DNA of 64,000 bases, taken from positions 1 through 64,000 of the forward strand of contig JAJYWQ010000050.1 in assembly GCA_021791415.1 (NCBI GenBank), read 5' to 3'. The notes below the pieces were generated by a model. It did not search any database. It saw nothing but the letters and a program-made list of their open reading frames with translations, and was not told where the DNA came from. The translations under genes were made by a program, and so were the position numbers. This document shows positions 5,858 through 19,395 of the stretch, piece after piece. This DNA comes from a bacterium. Lineage in GTDB: Bacteria; Chloroflexota; Dormibacteria; Aeolococcales; Bog-877. How positions within the stretch are numbered: the stretch's first letter is position 1; every line of letters starts with the position of its first letter.

Positions 5858-6829
5858 ATGAGGGTCTTCGTGGCAGGAGGCAGCGGTGTGGTGGGCCAGC
5901 ATCTGATCCCCATCCTGGTGGCGCGTGGTCACTCCGTGGTCGCTCTGACCAGGCGCGCCGAGAGGGCGGACCAGCTCCAGGGTCTGGGAGCGGAGCCGGC
6001 GGTCGCCGATGCGCTGGACCGGGACGCGATCTTGGCCGCGGTGACCCGCGCCCGGCCGGAGGTGGTCATCCACGAGCTCACGGCGCTCAAGGGGCTGGGC
6101 GACTTCCGGCACCTCGACCGCACCTTCGGACCGACCAACCGGCTCCGAACTGAGGGCACTGACATCCTGCTGGCCGCGGCTATGGGGGCCGGTTCGGCCC
6201 GCTTCATCGCCCAGAGTTACGCCGGCTGGCCCTTCGCCCGAGAGGGCGGACCGGTCAAGAGGGAGGAGGACCCGCTGGACCCCACGCCGCCACGGGAGGC
6301 GCGGCAAAGTTTGGCCGCCATCCGGTACCTCGAGACGGCGGTGCTGCAGTCGCCAGACCTTGAGGGGCTGGTACTTCGATACGGTGGCCTCTACGGCCCC
6401 GGCACCTCTGTCGCACCCGGCGGAGAACAGTTCGAGGACCTCCGGCGCCGACGGTTTCCAATTGTGGGCAGCGGCGCGGGGGTGTGGTCGTTCGTGCACG
6501 TCGGCGACGCGGCGATGGCCACCGCCCTGGCCGTCGAGCGCGGCGCCCCCGGCGTCTACAACATCGTAGACGACGATCCGGCGCCGGTCGCCGAGTGGCT
6601 GCCAGAACTGGCGCGAGCCATCGGTGCCCCCCCGCCCCGACACGTTCCCATCTGGTTGGGACGCCTGCTGGGCGGCGAGTTCGTGGTCACGGTGATGACC
6701 GAGGCTCGTGGCGCCTCCAATGCCAAGGCGAAGCGCGACCTCGGCTGGGCGCCGAGCCAGCCATCGTGGCGTGGCGGCTTCGCCGCCCTGGCGGCACCCG
6801 GCGCCATGGAGCAGAGAGCGGCCCATTGA
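5858..6829 (+). CDS. NAD-dependent epimerase/dehydratase family protein (ECF41 target)
   Basis: A 323-residue atypical short-chain dehydrogenase of the epimerase family. The N-terminal Rossmann motif G-G-S-G-V-V-G (residues 7-13) binds NAD(P). The substrate-binding half includes Y-A-G-W-P and a Y-G-G-L-Y-G-P segment typical of nucleoside-diphosphate-sugar epimerase relatives; the usual YxxxK catalytic pair is not clearly conserved, so reductase or isomerase activity is equally possible. A strong ribosome binding site (GGAGGAG) precedes ATG 5858. It is divergently arranged with the ECF41 sigma factor, and the intergenic promoter suggests it is that factor's target. Confidence 0.85.
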   Translation: MRVFVAGGSGVVGQHLIPILVARGHSVVALTRRAERADQLQGLGAEPAVADALDRDAILAAVTRARPEVVIHELTALKGLGDFRHLDRTFGPTNRLRTEGTDILLAAAMGAGSARFIAQSYAGWPFAREGGPVKREEDPLDPTPPREARQSLAAIRYLETAVLQSPDLEGLVLRYGGLYGPGTSVAPGGEQFEDLRRRRFPIVGSGAGVWSFVHVGDAAMATALAVERGAPGVYNIVDDDPAPVAEWLPELARAIGAPPPRHVPIWLGRLLGGEFVVTVMTEARGASNAKAKRDLGWAPSQPSWRGGFAALAAPGAMEQRAAH

Positions 6830-7045: not shown

Positions 7046-7142
7046 TCGACCGGCAAGCTGCCGGGGGCCTGGGGGGTCTGGCTCTTCACCAGAGACGCCC
7101 ACAGGGCTGGCCAGTTCGGCACCCGTCGCACGGAGGGTTCTC

Positions 7143-7637
7143 ATGGGACAGACTCTGCGGGTCACGGTGAACGGGGAGGCGCGCACTGACGAGGTCGAGC
7201 CGCGCCTCCTCCTGGTGCATTACCTGCGCGAGACATGCGGGCTGACCGGCACCCACGTGGGCTGCGACACCAGCCAGTGCGGCGCCTGCACGGTGCTCCT
7301 GGACGGGGCGGCTGTCAAGTCGTGCAACATGCTGGCGCTGCAGGCGGACGGCGCCGAGATCACCACCATCGAGGGGCTGGCCCCCGAGGGAGGGCTGCAC
7401 CCCCTCCAGACCGCCTTCTGGGAGAACCACGGGCTGCAGTGCGGCTACTGCACACCTGGGTTCATCATGGCGGCCGCGGCGCTCCTGGCGGAGAACCACG
7501 ACCCCTCCGATGAGGAGATCGGGAGAGGGCTGGAGGGGAACCTCTGCCGGTGCACCGGCTACGTCAACATCCGCAAGGCCGTGAGGGCGGCGGCCCAGGC
7601 GATGCGTGAGGGGGCCACGGCCCCCATCGGAGGGTAG
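7143..7637 (+). CDS. coxS: Molybdenum hydroxylase small subunit, [2Fe-2S] protein (CoxS-like)
   Basis: A 164-residue iron-sulfur subunit that passes electrons from the molybdenum centre to FAD. Both clusters are complete: the plant-ferredoxin type site (C41, C46, C49, C61) and the C-terminal site (C100, C103, C135, C137 in CGYC and CRCTGY). ATG 7143 with an AGGG ribosome site 7 nt upstream was chosen over an earlier in-frame ATG whose extension has no family match. First gene of an S-L-M-D-E-F order, the arrangement of form II-type (putative) CO dehydrogenases; form I operons are usually M-S-L. Confidence 0.95.
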
Positions 7638-7641
7638 GGGA

Positions 7642-9987
7642 ATGGCGGTCACTCAGCTGATCGGAGCCCGGGTTCAGCGTCGCGAGGACCCGCGGCTGAT
7701 CACCGGCCACGGACGCTTCATCGAGGACCACACCCTGCCCGGGCTGACGCACCTGGCGGTGGTTCGCAGCCCCCACCCCCATGCCCGGATCCTCGGCATC
7801 GACAGCGCGGCGGCCCGCGCACTGCCTGGGGTGTTGGCGGTATTCACCGCCGCTGACTTCCACAAGGTCCTCAGCGGCAGCATGCCCGTCACTCCCTCCT
7901 TCGCGCCGGAGAAGAAGTACGTCCCGGAGCGCTTCCCGATCGCCGAACGCGAGGTCTGCTTCCAGGGCGAGCCGGTGGCCGTGGTGGTGGCCCAGGACCG
8001 CTACCTGGCCGCCGACGCCGCCGACCTGGTCCAGGTCACCTACGAGCCCCTGCCGGCGGTGGTGGACCCCGAGGTGGCGATGAGCCCGGGAAGCCCCCTG
8101 GTCCACAGCGACGGACCGGACAACATCGGCTGGGACATGACCTACGCGGGCGGGGACATCGAAGCCGCCTTCGGCAGGGCCGAGGTGGTGGTGAAGGAGC
8201 GCATCCTCCAGCAGCGGCTGGCGCCCACCGCTATGGAGCCCAGGGGGGTGATGGCGAGCTACTCCCCCTACGACGAGCAGCTGACCCTCTGGCTCAGCAG
8301 CCAGAACCCGCATTTCATCCGCCTCTTCGTGTCCGGGGCCATGGGGATCCCGGAGAGCCGGGTCCGGGTGGTGTCCCCAGACGTGGGCGGGGGCTTTGGG
8401 AGCAAGATCAGCCCCTACCCTGAGGACTACCTGGTCCCGGCCGCCTCCAAGCTCCTGCAGCGGCCGGTGCGCTGGATCGAGACCCGGACCGAGTCCGTCA
8501 TGACCACCATCCACGGCCGAGGGCAGGTGTTCACCGCGGAGGCGGCGGCCCTCCGGGACGGGACCCTGCTGGGGCTCCGCCTGACCCAGGTGCTGGACCT
8601 CGGCGCCTACCACGGCACCTTCGGCGCCTTCCAGGCCTGCGCCTGCCTCATGTCGGGAGGGGTGTACCGCTGGGAGGCGATCTCGGCCCGGACCGTGGGG
8701 GTGCTCACCAACAAGGTCCCCACCGACCCCTACCGGGGGGCGGGCCGGCCCGAGGGGACCCACCTCTGCGAGCGGATGGTGGACCGGGTGGCCGATGAGC
8801 TGGGGATGGACCCCGCCGAACTCCGGCGCAAGAACTTCGCCCGGGAGTTCCCGTTCCAGAACAACTTCGGCCTGACCTACGACTCCGGCAACTACGACGG
8901 CACCCTGGACCGGGCCCTCGAGCTCTCCGACTACCAGGGCTGGCGGCGGCGGCAGGCGAGCGCCAGGGAGGAGGGCCGGCTCATCGGCGTCGGGCTCTCC
9001 ACCTGGGTGGAGATCTGTGGCCTCGGCCCCAGCGCCCCCACTGCTGCGGCCACCGGGGGGATCGCCCTGGTGGAGGCAGCCCAGATCCGCTTTCTGCCCT
9101 CCGGCTCGGTGGCTGCGTACGTCGGGACCCACGCCCACGGGCAGGGGCACGACACCACCTTCTCGCAGCTGGTGGCGGAGACCCTGGGGGTGCCGCTGGA
9201 GGCGGTCGACCTGCGCCACGGGGACACCGCCGAGGGGCCCTCGTTCGGCTACGGCACCTATGGCAGCCGCAGCCTGGCGGTGGGCGGGATGGCCCTCTAC
9301 ACCGCCTCCCAGGAGATCCTTGCCAAGGCGAGGAAGCTCGCCGCCCACCTTCTGGAGGCCGCCCCTGACGACCTGGAGTTCACGGAAGGCGCCTTCACGG
9401 TCCGGGGCAACCCCCAGGCCAAGAAGACGATCCAGGAGGTGGCCCTGGCCAGCTACGGCGGGAGTCTCCCCCAGGGGATGGAGCAGGGGCTGGAGGCGGT
9501 GAGCCACTTCGACCCCCCCAACTTCGTTTGGCCGTTCGGGGCCCACGTCTGCGTCGTCGAGGTGGATCGTGAGACCGGGGCTGTGGAGATCCTCAGCTAC
9601 ACCGGGGTCGATGACTGCGGCAACGTCATCAACCCGATGATCGTCGAGGGCCAGGTCCAGGGCGGCATCGCCCAGAGCATCGCCCAGGCGCTCTTCGAGG
9701 AGGTGGTCTACGACGGGGAGTCGGGACAGCTCCTGACCGGGACCATGCTCGACTACCTGGTCCCCACCATGAACGAGCTCCCGACCCCCAAGCTCGACCG
9801 GACAGTGACTCCCAGCCCCACCAACGCCCTCGGTGTGAAGGGGATCGGCGAGGCGGGGACGATCGCGGCCTCGGCGGCGGTGATCAACGCCGTCTGCGAC
9901 GCCCTGAGACCGCTGGGGATCCACCACGTGGACATGCCCGCCAGCCCGGACCGGCTCTGGCGGCTGATGCAGGAGGCAGGGCGGTGA
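7642..9987 (+). CDS. coxL: Molybdenum hydroxylase large subunit (form II CoxL-like)
   Basis: A 781-residue catalytic subunit of the xanthine oxidase superfamily, carrying Mo bound to molybdopterin (probably the cytosine dinucleotide form). GGGFGS is at 249-254 and the conserved catalytic Glu is E737 in G-I-G-E-A-G. The active-site loop reads P363-Y-R-G-A-G-R369: this is the form II signature AYRGAGR with Pro for Ala, and it lacks the Cys of the form I CO dehydrogenase loop AYXCSFR. CO oxidation therefore cannot be claimed; an aldehyde, heterocycle or other substrate is as likely. It follows coxS by 4 nt and its TGA overlaps the GTG of coxM. Confidence 0.93.
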   Translation: MAVTQLIGARVQRREDPRLITGHGRFIEDHTLPGLTHLAVVRSPHPHARILGIDSAAARALPGVLAVFTAADFHKVLSGSMPVTPSFAPEKKYVPERFPIAEREVCFQGEPVAVVVAQDRYLAADAADLVQVTYEPLPAVVDPEVAMSPGSPLVHSDGPDNIGWDMTYAGGDIEAAFGRAEVVVKERILQQRLAPTAMEPRGVMASYSPYDEQLTLWLSSQNPHFIRLFVSGAMGIPESRVRVVSPDVGGGFGSKISPYPEDYLVPAASKLLQRPVRWIETRTESVMTTIHGRGQVFTAEAAALRDGTLLGLRLTQVLDLGAYHGTFGAFQACACLMSGGVYRWEAISARTVGVLTNKVPTDPYRGAGRPEGTHLCERMVDRVADELGMDPAELRRKNFAREFPFQNNFGLTYDSGNYDGTLDRALELSDYQGWRRRQASAREEGRLIGVGLSTWVEICGLGPSAPTAAATGGIALVEAAQIRFLPSGSVAAYVGTHAHGQGHDTTFSQLVAETLGVPLEAVDLRHGDTAEGPSFGYGTYGSRSLAVGGMALYTASQEILAKARKLAAHLLEAAPDDLEFTEGAFTVRGNPQAKKTIQEVALASYGGSLPQGMEQGLEAVSHFDPPNFVWPFGAHVCVVEVDRETGAVEILSYTGVDDCGNVINPMIVEGQVQGGIAQSIAQALFEEVVYDGESGQLLTGTMLDYLVPTMNELPTPKLDRTVTPSPTNALGVKGIGEAGTIAASAAVINAVCDALRPLGIHHVDMPASPDRLWRLMQEAGR

Positions 9988-10790
9988 TTCCAGCAGCATT
10001 CAAGTACTCGAAAGCCGGCTCGGTGAGGGAGGCGGTGGCCCAGCTCCGGGAGGCCGGACCGGAGGCCAAGGTGATCGCCGGGGGGCAGAGCCTGATCCCG
10101 CTCCTGCGGCTCAGGCTCTCCCAGCCGACCCACCTGGTGGACGTCAACGGGGTTCGTGAGCTCGACTACGTCCACCCGGAGGGCGACGTCCTGCGCGTGG
10201 GGGCCCTGACCCGGCACTCCACCCTGGCCCGCTCCGAGCTGGTCCAACGCCACCTTCCCCTGCTGGCGGAGATGGCCGCCCAGGTGGGCGACCCGCAGAT
10301 CCGGGCCCGGGGCACCCTGGGCGGAGTCTTCGCCCATGCCGACGCCGCGGGAGACTACCCCACGCTGGCGGTGATGCTCGACGCCACCATCGTCACGGAC
10401 CGGCGTCGGGTTGCCGCCCGGGACTTCTTCCAGCACCTCTTCACCACAGTGCTCGCCGAGGACGAACTGGTCTGCGAGGTGGTCTTCCCCATGGCCCCGG
10501 GACCCCACCGGTACCTCAAGTTCCGGCGCCGGCTCTATGACTGGGCCATCGTCGGGGCGGCCGTACAGAAGCTGGACTCCGGGTGGCGAGTCGGTCTGAC
10601 GCACGTCGGCCCCACCGCGGTGCGAGCGGCCGCGGTGGAGGCCCGCCTGCTGGCAGGGGCCACCTTCCAGGAAGCCGCCGGCGCCGCCGCGGAGGAGCTC
10701 GACCCCCCGAGTGACGTGCGCGCCTCGGCCGACTACCGACGCCATCTCGCCCGGGTCCTCACCCGCAGGGCCCTGGAACAGGCGGCCTGA
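9984..10790 (+). CDS. coxM: Molybdenum hydroxylase FAD-binding subunit (CoxM-like)
   Basis: A 268-residue flavoprotein subunit of the VAO/PCMH-type FAD fold. It shows the two pyrophosphate-binding motifs of the family: A-G-G-Q-S-L-I-P (about 32-39) and the T-L-G-G segment (about 111-114) followed by H-A-D-A-A-G-D. It takes electrons from CoxS and hands them to an acceptor, the respiratory chain in most CoxM proteins. The GTG start at 9984 overlaps the coxL stop by 4 nt. Confidence 0.93.
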   Translation: MIPAAFKYSKAGSVREAVAQLREAGPEAKVIAGGQSLIPLLRLRLSQPTHLVDVNGVRELDYVHPEGDVLRVGALTRHSTLARSELVQRHLPLLAEMAAQVGDPQIRARGTLGGVFAHADAAGDYPTLAVMLDATIVTDRRRVAARDFFQHLFTTVLAEDELVCEVVFPMAPGPHRYLKFRRRLYDWAIVGAAVQKLDSGWRVGLTHVGPTAVRAAAVEARLLAGATFQEAAGAAAEELDPPSDVRASADYRRHLARVLTRRALEQAA

Positions 10791-10805: not shown

Positions 10806-11735
10806 GTGGGTCGGGGCGCGGTAGGGGCGCCGGGAGAGTTCGGCTGGCCGGAGGCTCAAGGCCTCGACTCTGTCGAGGAGATGCGCTCCCGGCTGGCCGC
10901 CGCCAGCTACCTCGCCGACCCGGCCCTGGCCACTGCCGCCTACCTGGGGCTCAAACTGGAGCGCCCGGTGCTCCTGGAAGGGGAGGCTGGGGTGGGGAAG
11001 ACCGAGCTGGCCAAGGCCCTCGCCCGGGTCCTGGGCGCCCCCCTGGTGCGGCTGCAGTGCTACGAGGGGATAGACGTGAGCCAGGCGCTGTATGAGTGGA
11101 ACCACGCCCGCCAGCTCCTGGCCATCCGGCAGCACGAGGGAGGAGGGCCCGACCTCGACCTGTACGCCGACCGCTTCCTCATCCGCCGGCCCCTCCTGGA
11201 GGCCCTGGATCCGGCGGACGGGCGGCGACGGGTGCTGCTCATCGACGAGGTGGACCGCAGCGACGACGAGTTCGAGGCCTTCCTCCTGGAGATGCTCTCC
11301 GACTGGCAGGTGACGATCCCCGAGCGCGGCACCCTCAGCTGCGAGAGTCCCCCACTCGTGATCCTGACCTCCAACCGGACCCGGGAGCTCCACGACGCCC
11401 TCAAGAGGCGCTGCCTGTACCACTGGATCGACTACCCGGGGTTCGACGAGGAGCTGGCGATCGTGCGCCTGCGCCTTCCCGAGGTCCCGGCCCAGCTGGC
11501 CGACCAGGTGGTGTCCTTCGTGCAGCAGCTGCGCTCCCTGCAGCTCTACAAGCTGCCGGGGGTGGCCGAGACCCTGGACTGGGCAGCTGCACTGCTGGCG
11601 CTGGAGCGCCACCGGCTGGACCCCGAGGTGGTGGCCGCCACCCTGGGCAGCCTGCTCAAGTACCAGGAGGACCTGGCGGCGCTGTCCGGAACCAGGGTCC
11701 CCGAACTGCTGGCCGAGGCCGGTGTCCGGAGCTGA
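10806..11735 (+). CDS. coxD: MoxR-type AAA+ ATPase (CoxD-like)
   Basis: A 309-residue AAA+ ATPase. Walker A is GEAGVGKT (59-66) and Walker B LLIDEVD (144-150), followed by a sensor segment L-T-S-N-R-T-R-E-L-H-D-A-L-K-R-R-C. CoxD with the VWA protein CoxE is thought to insert sulfur or copper into the active site of CO dehydrogenases; for form II enzymes the maturation role is inferred. GTG 10806 gives a plausible 15-nt gap after coxM; ATG 10881 is an alternative start that would remove 25 residues before the conserved domain. Its stop overlaps coxE by 14 nt. Confidence 0.9.
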   Translation: MGRGAVGAPGEFGWPEAQGLDSVEEMRSRLAAASYLADPALATAAYLGLKLERPVLLEGEAGVGKTELAKALARVLGAPLVRLQCYEGIDVSQALYEWNHARQLLAIRQHEGGGPDLDLYADRFLIRRPLLEALDPADGRRRVLLIDEVDRSDDEFEAFLLEMLSDWQVTIPERGTLSCESPPLVILTSNRTRELHDALKRRCLYHWIDYPGFDEELAIVRLRLPEVPAQLADQVVSFVQQLRSLQLYKLPGVAETLDWAAALLALERHRLDPEVVAATLGSLLKYQEDLAALSGTRVPELLAEAGVRS

Positions 11736-12897
11736 GGCGAGGTCCGAGGTGTCGGGGCTTCTTCCTGCCCTGGTGGGGCTGGCGCGGCGGCTTCGGCGAG
11801 AGGGGCTGCCGGTGGGCACCTCCGAGCTGCTGCTGGGGCTCAGGGCGGCGGCGCTCGTGGGTGTGCGGGACCGGAGCCGGCTGCGCCTGACGCTGCGTAG
11901 CTGCTGGTGCCACCAGCGTGGCGACCTCGCCGTCTTCGACCGGGCCTTCCGGGAGGAGCTGGGTGGCCCGCGCCCGGAGCTATCGCGGCTGGCCCGCCCG
12001 GTCGCCCAGGTGACCGTGCGCGCCGAGGCTCCAGGCGCCGCCACAGACCCGTCCCAAGCCTGGTCCGAGGGTCAGCCACGGGGGATAGCCAGCGTGGATG
12101 AGCGGCTGCGACGGCTGGACTTCGCCGCCTGCACCAGCGCGGAGCTGGCCGACCTGGAGAGGGCCGTGGCCGAGCTGGCCGCCCGGCCGGCTCTGCGCCG
12201 GTCCCGTCGCTACCGGCCCGCCCGCCGGGGCCGGGAGCTTGATTGGCGGCGCACCAGCGCCGCCGCGCTGCGTTCCGGGGGCGAGCCCTTGCAGCTGCAC
12301 CACCGCCGCCGGGGGGAGCGCCCGGTGCAGCTGCTGCTGATCTGCGATGTGAGCGGGTCCATGGAGCGTTACGCTCGCCTGATGGTGCGCTTCCTGCACG
12401 CCCTGGAGAGGACCTCCCCCGGAGCGGAGGCCTTCGTCTTCGGCACCCGCCTCACCCGGGTCACCCGGGAGCTGCGGCAGGCGGATCCCGGTGCGGCGCT
12501 GAGGGCGGTGGGGGCCGCCGTCCCGGACTGGTCCGGGGGCACGCGCATCGGCGACTGCCTCCATGAGCTCCTGACGAGATGGGGCGGGCGGGCGCTGAGC
12601 CGCGGGCCGGTGACCATCCTGCTCAGCGACGGCTGGGAGACAGGGGACGTCTCCCGGTTGGCGCAGGCGGCCGCCCGGCTGCGGCGGGGCAGCCGCCTCT
12701 TCATCTGGTGCAACCCGCGGATGGGCGATCCCGACTTCCGTCCCGAGGCGGCGGGGATGCGCGCGGCGCTGCCCCACCTGGATCGCCTCCAGCCTGTGCA
12801 CAACTACGCCAGCCTTGTCGAGCTCAGCCGCGTCCTGCGGCTGGACGAGAGCGGACGGCGGAGCCGGGCCCGGAGGATGGGACCGAGCCTTGCTTGA
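11722..12897 (+). CDS. coxE: VWA-domain protein (CoxE-like maturation factor)
   Basis: A 391-residue protein with an N-terminal helical region and a C-terminal von Willebrand factor A domain. The metal-ion-dependent adhesion site is intact (D209-x-S211-x-S213 in DVSGSM), with a later T-R-I-G-D and L-S-D-G-W segment supplying the remaining ligands. Partner of the adjacent MoxR ATPase. An Arg-rich stretch (about 158-175) lies just before the VWA domain. GTG 11722 is used; GTG 11749 is an alternative. Length is normal for CoxE. Confidence 0.88.
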   Translation: MSGAEARSEVSGLLPALVGLARRLRREGLPVGTSELLLGLRAAALVGVRDRSRLRLTLRSCWCHQRGDLAVFDRAFREELGGPRPELSRLARPVAQVTVRAEAPGAATDPSQAWSEGQPRGIASVDERLRRLDFAACTSAELADLERAVAELAARPALRRSRRYRPARRGRELDWRRTSAAALRSGGEPLQLHHRRRGERPVQLLLICDVSGSMERYARLMVRFLHALERTSPGAEAFVFGTRLTRVTRELRQADPGAALRAVGAAVPDWSGGTRIGDCLHELLTRWGGRALSRGPVTILLSDGWETGDVSRLAQAAARLRRGSRLFIWCNPRMGDPDFRPEAAGMRAALPHLDRLQPVHNYASLVELSRVLRLDESGRRSRARRMGPSLA

Positions 12898-13942
12898 GCT
12901 GATCCCGACCCTAGACGGCTGGGCCCCCCAGTTCCCCGAGGTGGCGGTGGCCACCGTGGTGCGCACCTGGGGCTCGACCCCACGCCCTCCCGGAGCGCGG
13001 CTGGCCATCGCTCCGGACGGGAGGATGGTGGGCTCTGTGAGCGGGGGATGCCTGGAGGCGGAGGTGGTGGAGCAGGGGCTCCGGACCCTGAGGGGCGAGG
13101 GGCCCCGGGTGCTCCACTACGGGATCGCTGATGAGCTGGGATGGACCGTGGGGTTGGCCTGCGGGGGTGAGGTGGACATCTTCGTGGAGCGGCTCCGCTG
13201 GGATCCGGGGGACCCCCTGGTGGCCGAGCTCAAGGAGGCGGCCCAAAGCGGGGGGGACGCGGTGCTCTGCACCTGGATCGCCGGCCCCGAGGTGGGTCGG
13301 CGGGCGCTTCTGGTGGGCGAGCGGCTGGTGGGAGGCGGCGGACCCTCCGAGCTGGCGGCGCTCACCGCGGCGGCGGCGCCTCACCTGCGCAGCGGTCGTG
13401 CGGGGGTCGAGGCGGTCCTCGGGGCGGAGGTCCTGCTGGAGCCGCTGGGCACCGCCCCGGAGATGGTGATCGTGGGCGCGGTGGACACCGGCTCCTCCCT
13501 CTGTCGGCTGGCCCAGGAGCTGGGGTACCGAGTGCTGGTGGTGGACCCCCGGGAGCGGTTTCTGACCCGAGAACGGTTCCCCAGCGCCGACGCGCTGATC
13601 CAGGAGTGGCCCCAAGCCGCCCTGGCCCGGCTCAGGCTCGGGCCGCGCGATGCGGCGGTCTGCCTGACCCACGACCCCAAGTTCGACGACCCAACCCTGC
13701 TGGCGCTGCTGCGGAGCGGGGTCGGATACATCGGGGCCATCGGCAGCCGCAAGACCCAGGAGGCCAGGAGGCAGAGGCTCATCGAGATGGGGGCGGAGCC
13801 GGAGTCTCTGTCTCGCATCCACGGCCCGGTGGGGCTGGATCTGGGCGGTGTCACGCCGGCCGAGCAGGCGCTCGCCATCCTGGCCGAGGCGGTGGCGGTC
13901 CGGTACGGGCGGAGCGGGCTGCCCCTCAAGACGGATAGATGA
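12890..13942 (+). CDS. XdhC/CoxF-family molybdenum hydroxylase maturation protein
   Basis: About 350 residues. The N-terminal XdhC domain has the characteristic T-W-G-S-T-P-R-P-P-G and S-V-S-G-G-C-L-E segments; the C-terminal Rossmann domain begins V-I-V-G-A-V-D-T-G-S and contains I-G-S-R-K-T and the closing H-G-P-V-G-L-D-L-G motif. XdhC proteins bind the molybdenum cofactor and promote its sulfuration before insertion. No ATG or GTG fits: the best start is TTG 12890, overlapping the coxE stop by 8 nt with GGAGG 13 nt upstream; an in-frame ATG at 12815 would add 25 unrelated residues inside coxE. Confidence 0.85.
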   Translation: MLELIPTLDGWAPQFPEVAVATVVRTWGSTPRPPGARLAIAPDGRMVGSVSGGCLEAEVVEQGLRTLRGEGPRVLHYGIADELGWTVGLACGGEVDIFVERLRWDPGDPLVAELKEAAQSGGDAVLCTWIAGPEVGRRALLVGERLVGGGGPSELAALTAAAAPHLRSGRAGVEAVLGAEVLLEPLGTAPEMVIVGAVDTGSSLCRLAQELGYRVLVVDPRERFLTRERFPSADALIQEWPQAALARLRLGPRDAAVCLTHDPKFDDPTLLALLRSGVGYIGAIGSRKTQEARRQRLIEMGAEPESLSRIHGPVGLDLGGVTPAEQALAILAEAVAVRYGRSGLPLKTDR

Positions 13943-14583
13943 GCCGGGAGAGCCTGCCCTTTCTGGTGCTGGCGGCCGGTGCCAGCTCTCGCATGGGCCG
14001 GCCCAAGCCGCTGCTGGAGCTGGGAGGGAGGACCCTTCTGGCCCGGGCCCTCTGGGCCGCGCATGAGGGGGGGGCGGCCCCGCTCCTGGTGGTCGCCAGG
14101 GACCCGGAGGAGCTGCGGTCGAGAGCGGGCCGGCTGCCGGCGGCGGAGTGGGTGACGAGCCCGGAGGCCCACCGGGGTCAGTCGTACTCGCTCCGGGTGG
14201 GGTTGCGGGCGGCAGCACGCCACCAGCCGCGGGCGGTCCTGGTGGGCCTTTCCGACCAGGTAGGGCTGCGCCCGGAGGCGGTGGCCGCGGTGCAGGAGGC
14301 GGTGGCCCAGGGTGGCTCCAAGGCCTGGAGCGTGGCGTACGGGGGAGATCGCACCGTCCCCGGCCACCCCGTGGCGCTGGGCCCGACCACCTGGCCACTC
14401 GTGGAACAGCTCCGGGGGGACCGCGGGGCGGGGCCGATCCTGGCCGGGCTGGGCCGAGAGTTGCGGTGGGTCGACCTGCCCGCCACATGGCGGCCGGTGG
14501 ACTGCGACACCGAGGAGGACTACCAGGCGCTGGTCGCCGCCGACCTCGCCGCCGCGCGGACCACATCCGGCGATGCGGGCTGA
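13939..14583 (+). CDS. MobA/MocA-like molybdopterin nucleotidyltransferase
   Basis: A 214-residue NTP transferase. The signature near the N-terminus, L-A-A-G-A-S-S-R-M-G-R-P-K (residues 10-22), binds the nucleotide. The metal-binding DxP-type motif reads S-D-Q-V, where relatives usually have DQP or DMP. Such proteins in Mo-hydroxylase operons attach CMP to molybdopterin to make the cytosine dinucleotide cofactor. ATG 13939 overlaps the previous stop (ATGA), and its own stop overlaps the next gene by 11 nt. Confidence 0.87.
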   Translation: MSRESLPFLVLAAGASSRMGRPKPLLELGGRTLLARALWAAHEGGAAPLLVVARDPEELRSRAGRLPAAEWVTSPEAHRGQSYSLRVGLRAAARHQPRAVLVGLSDQVGLRPEAVAAVQEAVAQGGSKAWSVAYGGDRTVPGHPVALGPTTWPLVEQLRGDRGAGPILAGLGRELRWVDLPATWRPVDCDTEEDYQALVAADLAAARTTSGDAG

Positions 14584-15616
14584 GCGCGTCCCCGCCGAGG
14601 GCTGGCGGGGCTCCCCGGAGCGCTGGCTGGGTGGGGTTCTCTGCCAGGACCTGAGGGCCGGGGACGGGAGCCGGCTGCTGGCCAAGGGGCACCGGCTGGA
14701 GCGCGCCGACGACCTGCTCCTGGAGGCCGCCTCGCCGGCGGACCTACACCTCGTGTTCCTGGATCCGGGGGACGTCGACGAGGACTCGGCGGCGGTGCGG
14801 CTGGCGGCGCTGGTGGCCGGTGATGGGTCGCTGGCGGGTCGGCCGGTCGAGTCCCAGGTGACCTGCCGGGCGCGCTGGCGGGGGCTGGTCCGGGTGGCGT
14901 CGGAGCGGCTGCTGGCCCTCAACGCGCTGGAGGGGATCACCGTCTTCACCCTTCCGGACGGGATGCCCGTGGAGGCCGGGCGGTCGGTGGCCGGGGTCAA
15001 GGTGACCGGGCTCGCAATCCCGGCCGCGGCCCTGGAGGAGGCCCGGGCCCGGGCCGGGAACGGGGGCCTGGTGGACGTGCGGCCCTTCCTGCCCCGCCGG
15101 GTGAGCGCCCTGGTGCTGGAGGGGCTCAGCGAGGGGCGCCGCGACCGGTTCGAGCAGGCGCTCCGGCTCAAGGTGGAGTGGCTGCGGGGATCGGTGCGGG
15201 AGGTCAGGTACCTTCCGGACCGTGGCGCGGCGGACCGGGCGGTGATGACATCCATGGCCGCCACCTCCGACCTGCTGCTGGTGGCCGGCGTGGCCTCCAT
15301 CGACCCCCTGGATCCCCCCTGGCAAGCGCTTCTCGAGGCAGGCGCCGTCGCCGTGCGCCGCGGCCTCCCCGTCCATCCCGGAAGCAGCTATTGGGTGGCC
15401 CGGCTGGGATCGTGTGACGTGGTGGGGGTGGCCTCCTGCGGCATGTTCTCCCGGCGGACGGCTCTCGATCTCCTGCTCTGCCGAAGCTGCTCCGGCGGCC
15501 CGCTGACGCCGGAATACCTCGCCTCCCTCGGGGAGGGAGGGCTGCTGGCGCGGGAGATGCAGCACCGCTTCCCGGACTACCAGGGCGAGGGAGCTGGGAT
15601 CCTGGAAGCCGACTGA
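14573..15616 (+). CDS. Molybdopterin-binding (MoeA/MogA-fold) protein of the cox-like operon
   Basis: A 347-residue protein whose C-terminal half (about 190-330) has the molybdopterin-binding fold shared by MoeA, MogA and MoaB: T-S-D-L-L-L-V-A-G as substrate-site loop, then P-V-H-P-G-S-S-Y-W and D-V-V-G-V-A-S-C. The N-terminal half resembles the MoeA-like proteins found next to, or fused with, MobA-like transferases in Mo-hydroxylase operons. A role in handling the cofactor for this enzyme is inferred from context. ATG 14573 lies inside the end of the previous gene. A Cys pair (C-R-S-C) near residue 305 is unexplained. Confidence 0.75.
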   Translation: MRAERVPAEGWRGSPERWLGGVLCQDLRAGDGSRLLAKGHRLERADDLLLEAASPADLHLVFLDPGDVDEDSAAVRLAALVAGDGSLAGRPVESQVTCRARWRGLVRVASERLLALNALEGITVFTLPDGMPVEAGRSVAGVKVTGLAIPAAALEEARARAGNGGLVDVRPFLPRRVSALVLEGLSEGRRDRFEQALRLKVEWLRGSVREVRYLPDRGAADRAVMTSMAATSDLLLVAGVASIDPLDPPWQALLEAGAVAVRRGLPVHPGSSYWVARLGSCDVVGVASCGMFSRRTALDLLLCRSCSGGPLTPEYLASLGEGGLLAREMQHRFPDYQGEGAGILEAD

Positions 15617-16346: not shown

Positions 16347-17000
16347 CTAACCGCGGCGTCGGCTCCCGCCCTCCGCGCCCTGGGGCAGTCGGACCGGGAA
16401 CATGAAGGTGATGAGCTCCACCGGCACCGTGCCCTCGGGCCTCTCGGCGGGGTCCAGACGGGGCATGAACCCCCCCAGCATGGTGTGCAGCCGGAGCTGG
16501 ATCTCCTCCAGCTCCTCCCTGGTCACCCAGAGCAGGAACTGGTTGGTCTCGGCCGCTGCCTGCCACTCCGGGGGATAGGTGGACCTGGTCGTCTCCCACA
16601 TCTCCAGGTGCTCGATCAGCCGGCGGCGGAAGATGCTTCCGAGCAACTCCGCCTCGACCGTGGCCTCGGCGTCCTCCCCCTCACGGGGGACGGTGTTGGC
16701 TCGGGCGACCATTCGCCAGGGCCGACGCCGCCCCGGTCCGCGCTCCCCCTCCTCGATGAAACCGTAGCGGGCCAGCTGCCGGAGGTGGAATGAGCAGGTG
16801 GTCGGGCTCTCCCCCACCAGCTCGGACACCTCGGTGGCGGTCAGCGGTCCGTCCACGGCCAGCGCCTCCAGAAGGGCGATGCGCAGGGGATGGGCCAGCG
16901 CCCGAAGAGTCCTGGCATCCTGAAGCCGGCGATAGGACCGGCGGGGATCCGCGGTGTCCGGTGGGGAGGCCTCGGCCTCCCCCTGGCCAAAGTCCTTCAC
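16347..17000 (-). CDS. ArsR-type winged-helix transcriptional regulator
   Basis: A 217-residue regulator: an ArsR-like winged helix (about 27-95, with L-A-H-P-L-R-I-A-L-L-E-A-L and the recognition helix around S-P-T-T-C-S-F-H-L-R-Q-L) and a C-terminal helical region (about 110-190). It has no obvious metal-binding Cys cluster, and the 217-residue length matches the class that carries a ligand-binding tail. A stand-alone gene between two unrelated minus-strand genes; its target is unknown. Confidence 0.85.
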   Translation of the reverse strand: MKDFGQGEAEASPPDTADPRRSYRRLQDARTLRALAHPLRIALLEALAVDGPLTATEVSELVGESPTTCSFHLRQLARYGFIEEGERGPGRRRPWRMVARANTVPREGEDAEATVEAELLGSIFRRRLIEHLEMWETTRSTYPPEWQAAAETNQFLLWVTREELEEIQLRLHTMLGGFMPRLDPAERPEGTVPVELITFMFPVRLPQGAEGGSRRRG

Positions 17001-17120
17001 GCGCGCTGCCCACCGGCGCCGAGGCCCGCCCGGCGGCAGACCTCCTGGCAGTCTTGGAGTCGCGGCAAGTGGGCCACCACCCCCTCATGTTCGCAGACCA
17101 CACCAGCTGGCGGGCCCTCC

Positions 17121-18812
17121 TCAGGTGCGGCCGAGGGTGCGGGCCTGAAGCGCCACCTGCAGGACCACCCGGGTCTCAGGGTCGTCCAGGGAGAGCTGGA
17201 GGAGCATCTCCAAGCGCTGCACCCGGTAGGTGAGGGTGTTGATGTGCACCTTGAGCCGGCGGGCCGCGGCCCGCTGGTTCCAGCCCTCCCCGGCCAGCGC
17301 CTCCAGCGTGGCCAGCAGCGGGGTCGCCCGCCGCCGTGAGTACTCCAGGAGGGGCCCCAGCGTCTCGCCCACGAAGCGGTCCACCGCCGCCGGGTCCCGC
17401 ACCTCGAGCAGTAGGCGCAGCGCCCCCAGCGAGCGGTAGGAGGCCACCAGCCGCGCCCTCCCTCCCCGGCGCGACAGGCGCAGCGCCTGCCGGGCCTCCT
17501 CATAGGCCCGGGGCAGCTCGTCTGCCCCAGCTGCCAGGTTGCCGATCCCGACGGAGACGCTGAGCCGGCGGTCCACCCCGTGGGCCAGCCGCGACATCTC
17601 CCGCCCCAGCTCCTCCACCTGCGCGAGCGAGGGACGGGCCGGATCACGGCCCGGGGCCTCCGCCGGCACCAGGACCAGGGTGGCGGCCCCCCGGGACGCC
17701 ACCACCGCCCCGGGGTGGCGGGGCCGGCAGTGCTCGACGAGATCGCGGGAGAGGCGCTCCTGAAGGGGCCCGGACTGGAGGGCGGTGGCGGAGCGTTCGT
17801 CGTCCGGCTCCAGGAGCAGCAGCCAGGCCTGGGCGGGGATCCGGAAGCCCAGCCGCTCGGCCCTCTGAGCCAGCCGCCTCGCCTCCTCGGGCTCTCCCCC
17901 GGCGGTGACCAGCCCCTCGATCAGGTCGCCGCGAAGCCGCCGCTCCACCTCGGCGGCGGCCCGCTCCTTGAGGAGCTCCAGCGCCACCACCGTGGCGCCC
18001 TGCTCCAGCGCTCGCCGCCGGGAGGCCGAGCCGCCGAGGTCGCCCTCCAGGGCGAGGACCGCGACCAGCTCGGAGCCCGCGCGGACCGGGGTCAGGGTGA
18101 GCTGCTGGGGTGGCCGGCCGTGGCGGACCGCCACCGGCCCCTCGGCCCCGGCCGTCAGCTGGGGTGGAAGCTGGAGCCGGCGGGGGCCCGGCCCTCGTCC
18201 CAGCCCGTGCTCCAACCGAAACCCCAGGGGGTCGTACACCCCCACCGCGCCCCCGGCCAGGCCTGAGATGGCCTCCACGATCCGGGCCAGTCCGGCGCCG
18301 GTGAGGACCAGCTCCGTGAACCGCTCGTGGGTCAGCTGGGCCAGGCGGACCTCCTCCAGCTGCTCCTCGAGGCGGCGCTGCAGCTCGCTGCGCTCCAGGA
18401 CCCCGGCGATCGCCCCGGCGATCGCCGAGAGGAACGCCACCTCCTCGGGACGGAACTCCCGCCGAGCCACGGTCTGGACGTTCAGCACCCCCACCATCCG
18501 GGGCCCCGCCTCTATGGGGACCGAGAGCATGGAGGTGAAGCGCGCCTCGTCGACCCCCTCCACCCACTTGAACCGGGGGTCGCGGGCCACCTCGGGCACG
18601 ACCAGAGGGAGCCGCGAGGCGGCCACGGCGCCGGTTATCCCCTCCCCCAGCGGCATCACGACCCGTCCCAGAGCCGCCTGGTTCAACCCGTTGGTGGCGG
18701 TGAGGACCAGCCCGCCGCGGGCCTCATCCTGCAGGTACAGGGCGCAGACGTCCGCATCCATGGCGCCGGTGGTCTGGCCGATCACCAGCTCCAGCAGGCG
18801 GTCGCGAGACAT
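17121..18812 (-). CDS. GAF-domain transcriptional regulator with PucR/CdaR-type HTH
   Basis: A 563-residue regulator: N-terminal GAF domain (about 1-135), a short coiled linker, a central GGDEF-like/CdaR region (about 300-430) and a C-terminal PucR helix-turn-helix (about 500-555: [19 protein letters not shown]). PucR-family proteins activate catabolic genes, often for purines, so control of the molybdenum hydroxylase or cofactor genes is possible but unproven. The ATG at 18812 has no ribosome site, and coding-like sequence ([12 protein letters not shown]) continues about 28 codons upstream to a stop without any ATG, GTG or TTG, so the true start may be CTG. Confidence 0.85.
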
Positions 18813-18885
18813 GGTGGAGGCGGCGGCCAGCGCCAGCTGCTGGAGGAACAGCAGCTCGCGCAGCTCGCGGTCGTCCCGGGGATGG

Positions 18886-19395
18886 TCAGCCGGCGTGGGG
18901 GTCCTCCGGCCTGGTCACCGCCCCGGAGCGCCCCCCGCTCTTGGCCACCAGCTGCACCCCGTCCACCCGCGCCCAGGGGTCCACGCTCTTCAGCATGTCG
19001 ATCACGGTGAGGGCCGCCACCGCGACCGCGGTGAGGGCCTCCATCTCCACCCCGGTCGCATCGTCGCAGCGGGCCCGGGCCCACAGCCGGATGGCGGGAG
19101 TGTCCCGGTCGAGCTCGGCCTCCACGTCCACATGCCGCAGCGCCACCGGGTGGCAGAGCGGGATCAGCTCCGGGGTGCGCTTGGCCCCCATGATCCCGGC
19201 CAGCCGGGCCACCGCCAGCACGTCCCCCTTGGCGAGCTGACCGGCGGCCACAGCGTCCGCAGCCGCGGCACTGATGTGCACCCGTCCCTCGGCGGTCGCC
19301 TCGCGGCGGGACACCGGGCGGTCACCGACGTCCACCATCCGGGCCCGGCCCCGCTCGTCCAGGTGGGTGAGGCGGTGGCCTTCCTCGGGCGCCAT
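18886..19395 (-). CDS. moaC: Cyclic pyranopterin monophosphate synthase MoaC
   Basis: A 169-residue second enzyme of molybdenum cofactor synthesis, converting 3',8-cyclo-7,8-dihydro-GTP to cyclic pyranopterin monophosphate. Family landmarks: M-V-D-V-G-D near residue 20, [19 protein letters not shown] (about 57-75), L-C-H-P (about 80-83), [14 protein letters not shown] and a late D-M-L-K-S catalytic Lys segment. ATG 19395 overlaps the previous stop (ATGA). moaA was not found in the window. Context with the Mo hydroxylase genes 3 kb away fits cofactor supply. Confidence 0.94.

Follow-up and report, generated by a model that had tools for sequence, protein, structure and literature searches.

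Enzymes named form II CO dehydrogenases are set apart by the gene order S-L-M and lack firm evidence of CO oxidation (PMC7248562, PMC13203968). For Aeropyrum pernix, CO-oxidising activity of a putative form II enzyme has been reported, although the purified protein was not tied to the gene (PMC7248562). Publications of 2014, 2018 and 2024 have already described the active-site loop PYRGAGR as an atypical motif of form II (PMC4053681, PMC6053391, PMC10773090). In Saccharomonospora viridis and Streptosporangium roseum it was classed as atypical type II (PMC4053681), and it was also found in Aigarchaeota (PMC6053391) and in hadal Thaumarchaeota (PMC10773090). Although the motif is accepted as atypical form II in these studies, strict sorting by AYRGAGR, as in PMC12996764, would drop the CoxL-like protein described here.

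We propose, with a probability of roughly 85%, that the cox-like locus in the window (the whole 64,000-nucleotide stretch of DNA that was analysed) encodes a copper-free molybdenum hydroxylase that acts on a small organic substrate and is separate from the form I CO dehydrogenase of the same genome. The enzyme would be a heterotrimeric member of the xanthine oxidase family, one of those named form II CO dehydrogenase. A mononuclear molybdopterin centre in L would hydroxylate the substrate with water-derived oxygen, and electrons would travel by way of the two [2Fe-2S] clusters in S and the FAD in M to an acceptor. The D, E and F proteins, together with a MocA-like protein, may mature and load the cofactor.

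Operon organization

The genes lie on the plus strand in the order S-L-M-D-E-F, as assigned by Pfam, and are followed by genes for a MocA-like NTP transferase and for a protein with a weak MoCF-like trace. The CoxS-like [2Fe-2S] subunit (7143..7637, 164 aa; Fer2 and Fer2_2) precedes the CoxL-like molybdopterin subunit with its xYRGAGR loop (7642..9987; Ald_Xan_dh_C, MoCoBD_1 and MoCoBD_2), which is translated from the ATG at 7642 into 781 residues, and the CoxM-like FAD subunit (9984..10790, 268 aa; FAD_binding_5 and CO_deh_flav_C). The MoCo-binding domains, the [2Fe-2S] subunit and the FAD subunit that characterize the xanthine oxidase family are all present, with scores well over the Pfam cut-offs. 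Downstream lie a CoxD-like AAA+ ATPase (10806..11735, 309 aa; AAA_5), which shares 53% identity with the MoxR-family ATPase encoded in the form I cox operon of Afipia, a CoxE-like vWA protein (11722..12897, 391 aa; VWA_CoxE, 211.6 bits) and a CoxF/XdhC-family maturation factor (12815..13942; XdhC_CoxI and XdhC_C), whose true start is probably near 12880. The D-E-F genes are often part of the operon in related Dormiibacterota as well. The MocA-like NTP transferase (13939..14583; Pfam NTP_transf_3) is a probable molybdenum cofactor cytidylyltransferase and scores 95 bits, below the cut-off, against the NCBIfam MocA model TIGR03310. The last gene (14573..15616, 347 aa), whose start was placed by homology to L039, is syntenic in close relatives and encodes a possible molybdopterin-binding protein; no Pfam or NCBIfam family matches it above the cut-off, and its weak MoCF_biosynth match (E = 0.015) stays under the gathering score.

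An upstream SDR gene (5858-6829) was rejected as a member of the operon because it is absent beside S in the 95-96% relatives. Downstream of the operon, the minus strand (16347-19395) carries genes for an ArsR-type HTH protein, a GAF+PucR regulator and MoaC, which are syntenic in close relatives.

The PYRGAGR loop and its phylogenetic placement

The first-pass annotation described a CO-dehydrogenase-like S-L-M-D-E-F locus, which Pfam bears out, and a form II-type PYRGAGR loop without the copper-binding Cys, which translation confirms at residues 363-369 (8728..8748, plus strand). The loop was aligned with form I, form II, 4ZOH and 1T3Q loops. In the alignment with the form I proteins of Afipia pHCG3 and M. 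smegmatis (8UEM), Gly366 of the window CoxL occupies the column of the copper-ligating Cys (AYRCSFR), and form I loops contain one extra residue ahead of the Ala (GGVAYRCSFR versus TD-PYRGAGR). The window CoxL thus lacks the form I AYXCSFR loop, and all form II proteins, the window CoxL included, are without the copper-ligating Cys; this suggests that the window enzyme would function without copper. Gln221 and Glu737 fall in the columns of the Gln and Glu of form I and 4ZOH, and neither residue varies among 30 relatives. This pair is established as the catalytic Gln and Glu of the molybdenum hydroxylase family.

The predicted structure of the window CoxL (pLDDT 86.8, pTM 0.88) superimposes with TM scores of 0.93 on 8UEM, 0.93 on quinoline oxidoreductase and 0.83/0.92 on 4ZOH. 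Because the model matches all three structures, the fold does not decide the substrate.

The Dormiibacterota clade with PYRGAGR has support of 98.9/98 under LG+G4 and 100/98 under LG+C20, and it forms a group at 100/100 with the AYRGAGR proteins L078 and L079; its sister sequences carry AYRGAGR. Form I is a separate clade, at 100/100 in both mixture-model trees, with the window CoxL outside it. Form I membership of the window CoxL is therefore rejected by the loop, by the clade and by the curated cut-off. Form I, the AYRGAGR lineages and the PYRGAGR group cluster together at 98/97 and, in the second tree, at 99/98, which excludes 4ZOH, and the quinoline and nicotine enzymes fall outside this assemblage as a separate clade in the mixture-model trees. 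A clean placement nested in form II was not upheld, since the bipartition that unites the PYRGAGR clade with AYRGAGR CoxL in a monophyletic form II receives 21/59 under LG+G4 and the mixture-model trees fix no branching order. The C20 tree weakly sets the PYRGAGR group next to form I (87/81), whereas the more widely sampled tree shows an open fork here; an AU test did not reject (p = 0.53) a constraint that joins the PYR clade to form I and separates it from four AYR rows. Two loci (L140 and L144) were left out because their longest frame was the wrong frame. The clustering inside a biochemically proven CO-oxidising form II clade with PYRGAGR that would have refuted the first-pass annotation did not occur; no such proven enzyme was present among the sequences compared or in the literature examined.

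Candidate substrates and alternative readings

The proposal of a copper-free hydroxylase is based on Gly366 in the Cys column, the retained Gln221 and Glu737, the position outside the form I clade, NCBIfam scores below the cut-offs, the S-L-M order, the 4ZOH loop SYRGAGRPEG, the presence of a form I enzyme elsewhere in the genome, the paired sets of locus L072 described below and the published lack of firm evidence that form II oxidises CO. Against it stand the D/E/F genes, which are common to form I operons, the CO-oxidising activity reported for A. pernix, the weak placement beside form I in one mixture-model tree, and a global sequence and fold that resemble 4ZOH less than they do form I structures. 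What is the substrate of such a hydroxylase? The first-pass annotation regarded it as open, a position that we uphold; our best guess is an aldehyde or an N-heterocycle.

A glyceraldehyde or other aldehyde oxidoreductase specifically, similar to Sulfolobus 4ZOH, is a possible identity to which we assign somewhat less than even odds. The best NCBIfam match of S, L and M is in each case a glyceraldehyde dehydrogenase model, and the xYRGAGRPEG loop is common to 4ZOH and the window CoxL. However, all three subunits score under the equivalog cut-offs of these models (NF041018/19/20): 716 against 790 bits for L with the alpha model, 254 against 350 for M and 244 against 290 for S with the gamma model. 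The window CoxL, for which the CO dehydrogenase model ranks second, in fact falls under every curated NCBIfam cut-off. Furthermore, 4ZOH lies outside the group of form I and form II, and the overall fold match to 4ZOH is lower than that to form I.

The locus may instead encode a hydroxylase of an N-heterocycle or purine-like compound, a tentative reading to which we give slightly lower odds. A PucR-family regulator gene is located nearby (17121-18812), but it is syntenic with housekeeping genes and may be unrelated. In two other Dormiibacterota, amidase genes adjoin the operon: in L051 an amidase gene is inserted between M and D (13443-14855), and in L061 a divergent CoxG gene and an amidase gene lie upstream of the operon (7096-8208 and 8780-9484). 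These neighbours would hint at nitrogen-containing substrates, although they are not conserved in the window, from which amidase genes are absent. An AYRGAGR homolog on a Rubrobacter indicoceani plasmid (L122, 1458-8343) adjoins 5-oxoprolinase (PxpA) and biotin-dependent carboxylase-type genes. The loop and the trees argue against this reading, given that Ala367 of the window CoxL aligns with an aromatic residue in XDH-type loops (AFRGFG, AMRGYG) and that the quinoline and nicotine enzymes constitute a clade of their own.

The first-pass annotation singled out the Ala-to-Pro change as unusual, a view that does not hold, because the motif is published as atypical, is clade-wide in Dormiibacterota and recurs in unrelated paralogs. 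In the 113 loci read, close orthologs (63-96% identity) all carry PYRGAGR, save one with IYRGAGR, and remoter relatives (48-58%) carry AYRGAGR, save one with ANRGAGR; the orthologs at 89-96% come from metagenome-assembled genomes labelled 'bacterium' or Candidatus Dormiibacterota. A degenerate DNA pattern for PYRGAGRPE matched 19 of the 121 genomes of the phylum, and the reversed control matched 1. Conservation in close orthologs and a pattern count above the control indicate that the motif is no chance or sequencing artefact. Pro also occupies the loop position in an Acidobacteria paralog (L116) and in further lineages. A second CoxL-like paralog of the same genome (G000:C2:37273-39540; L003, L127) has PYRGAGR as well and is 44% identical to the window CoxL; a tblastn search with the window S and M located neither beside it. 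That all PYRGAGR proteins go back to one origin is disfavoured, though not formally rejected (AU p = 0.064), with a parsimony minimum of six changes of Pro at the residue-363 position. PYRGAGR is thus not a new motif but a variant already known to recur, and within Dormiibacterota it is the trait of a whole clade. It is improbable that the change to Pro adapts the active site to a new class of substrate: Pro is fixed, with the one IYRGAGR exception, across a deep Dormiibacterota clade, but Ala, Ser and Ile are found there in other proteins, and residue 363 sits three residues ahead of the copper-Cys position. Most likely, Pro363 is a tolerated substitution in the outer loop.

The host, a soil-type bacterium of Candidatus Dormiibacterota with a genome of 2.16 Mb in 86 contigs, encodes a form I CO dehydrogenase on contig C86 (L002) with the loop AYACSFR and the gene order M-S-L-F-D-E. 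This paralog scores 1324 bits against the CO dehydrogenase model TIGR02416 (cut-off 991), which rejects the window CoxL at 695 bits. CO oxidation in the host organism would most likely be carried out by this separate enzyme. In another locus (L072, 9471-20593), 3.7 kb separate a PYRGAGR S-L-M set from an AYRCSFR M-S-L set; the genes between them read as moaC (by homology) and as moaD/E, moaA and moeA (judged by eye). In a very improbable reading, no Cys-less lineage is a closer sister to form I than the Dormiibacterota clade, which would retain the pre-copper condition ancestral to Mo-Cu CO dehydrogenase, perhaps with weak copper-independent CO activity. Also very improbable is the idea that the locus encodes a genuine aerobic CO dehydrogenase without Cys-bound copper, serving as a second such enzyme. 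In its favour are the Cox-type gene set that includes D, E and F, the form I structures as closest in sequence and fold among those solved and the single tree that sets the clade beside form I; against it are the missing Cys at the copper position, the form I enzyme already in the genome, the missed NCBIfam cut-off and a literature in which CO oxidation by form II lacks firm support.

Comparison with known systems

The copper-free hydroxylase proposed here provides a further example of why a CoxL homolog should not automatically be named a CO dehydrogenase, here in a phylum to which trace-gas oxidation is often attributed. The expectation that annotation pipelines would call the protein a CO dehydrogenase held in part: the NCBIfam model TIGR02416 rejects it, whereas KEGG- or COG-based calls can detect form II CoxL (PMC13203968). 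Homology- or KEGG-based counts could tally the PYRGAGR clade, a common one in Dormiibacterota, as CO oxidation, and searches for exact AYRGAGR (2026 review) would miss it. The clade offers a well-conserved set for testing the true substrate of form II-type enzymes.

Form II (BMS-type) CoxSLM with AYRGAGR resembles the window locus in its S-L-M order and its YRGAGR loop without a copper ligand, and some of these relatives also have D/E/F accessory genes. The window CoxL shares 48-58% identity with AYRGAGR proteins, both those from other phyla and the Dormiibacterota proteins L078/L079, but differs from them by Pro in place of Ala before the Tyr and by its own Dormiibacterota clade; form II itself is not one resolved clade in the present trees. 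The CoxL proteins of S. viridis, S. roseum, Aigarchaeota and Thaumarchaeota, all from other phyla, share the identical PYRGAGR motif, a comparison made at the level of the motif. The Sulfolobus glyceraldehyde oxidoreductase of known structure (4ZOH) has similar trimer subunit types and the loop SYRGAGRPEG, but its L subunit is 35% identical to the window CoxL and branches outside the form I and form II group. The form I Mo-Cu CO dehydrogenases (1N5W, 1FFU and 8UEM) match the window locus in overall fold, subunit set and D/E/F genes. In contrast, the window CoxL has no Cys in the loop, is one residue shorter before it and is 38-45% identical to the form I proteins, and its genes follow the order S-L-M instead of M-S-L.
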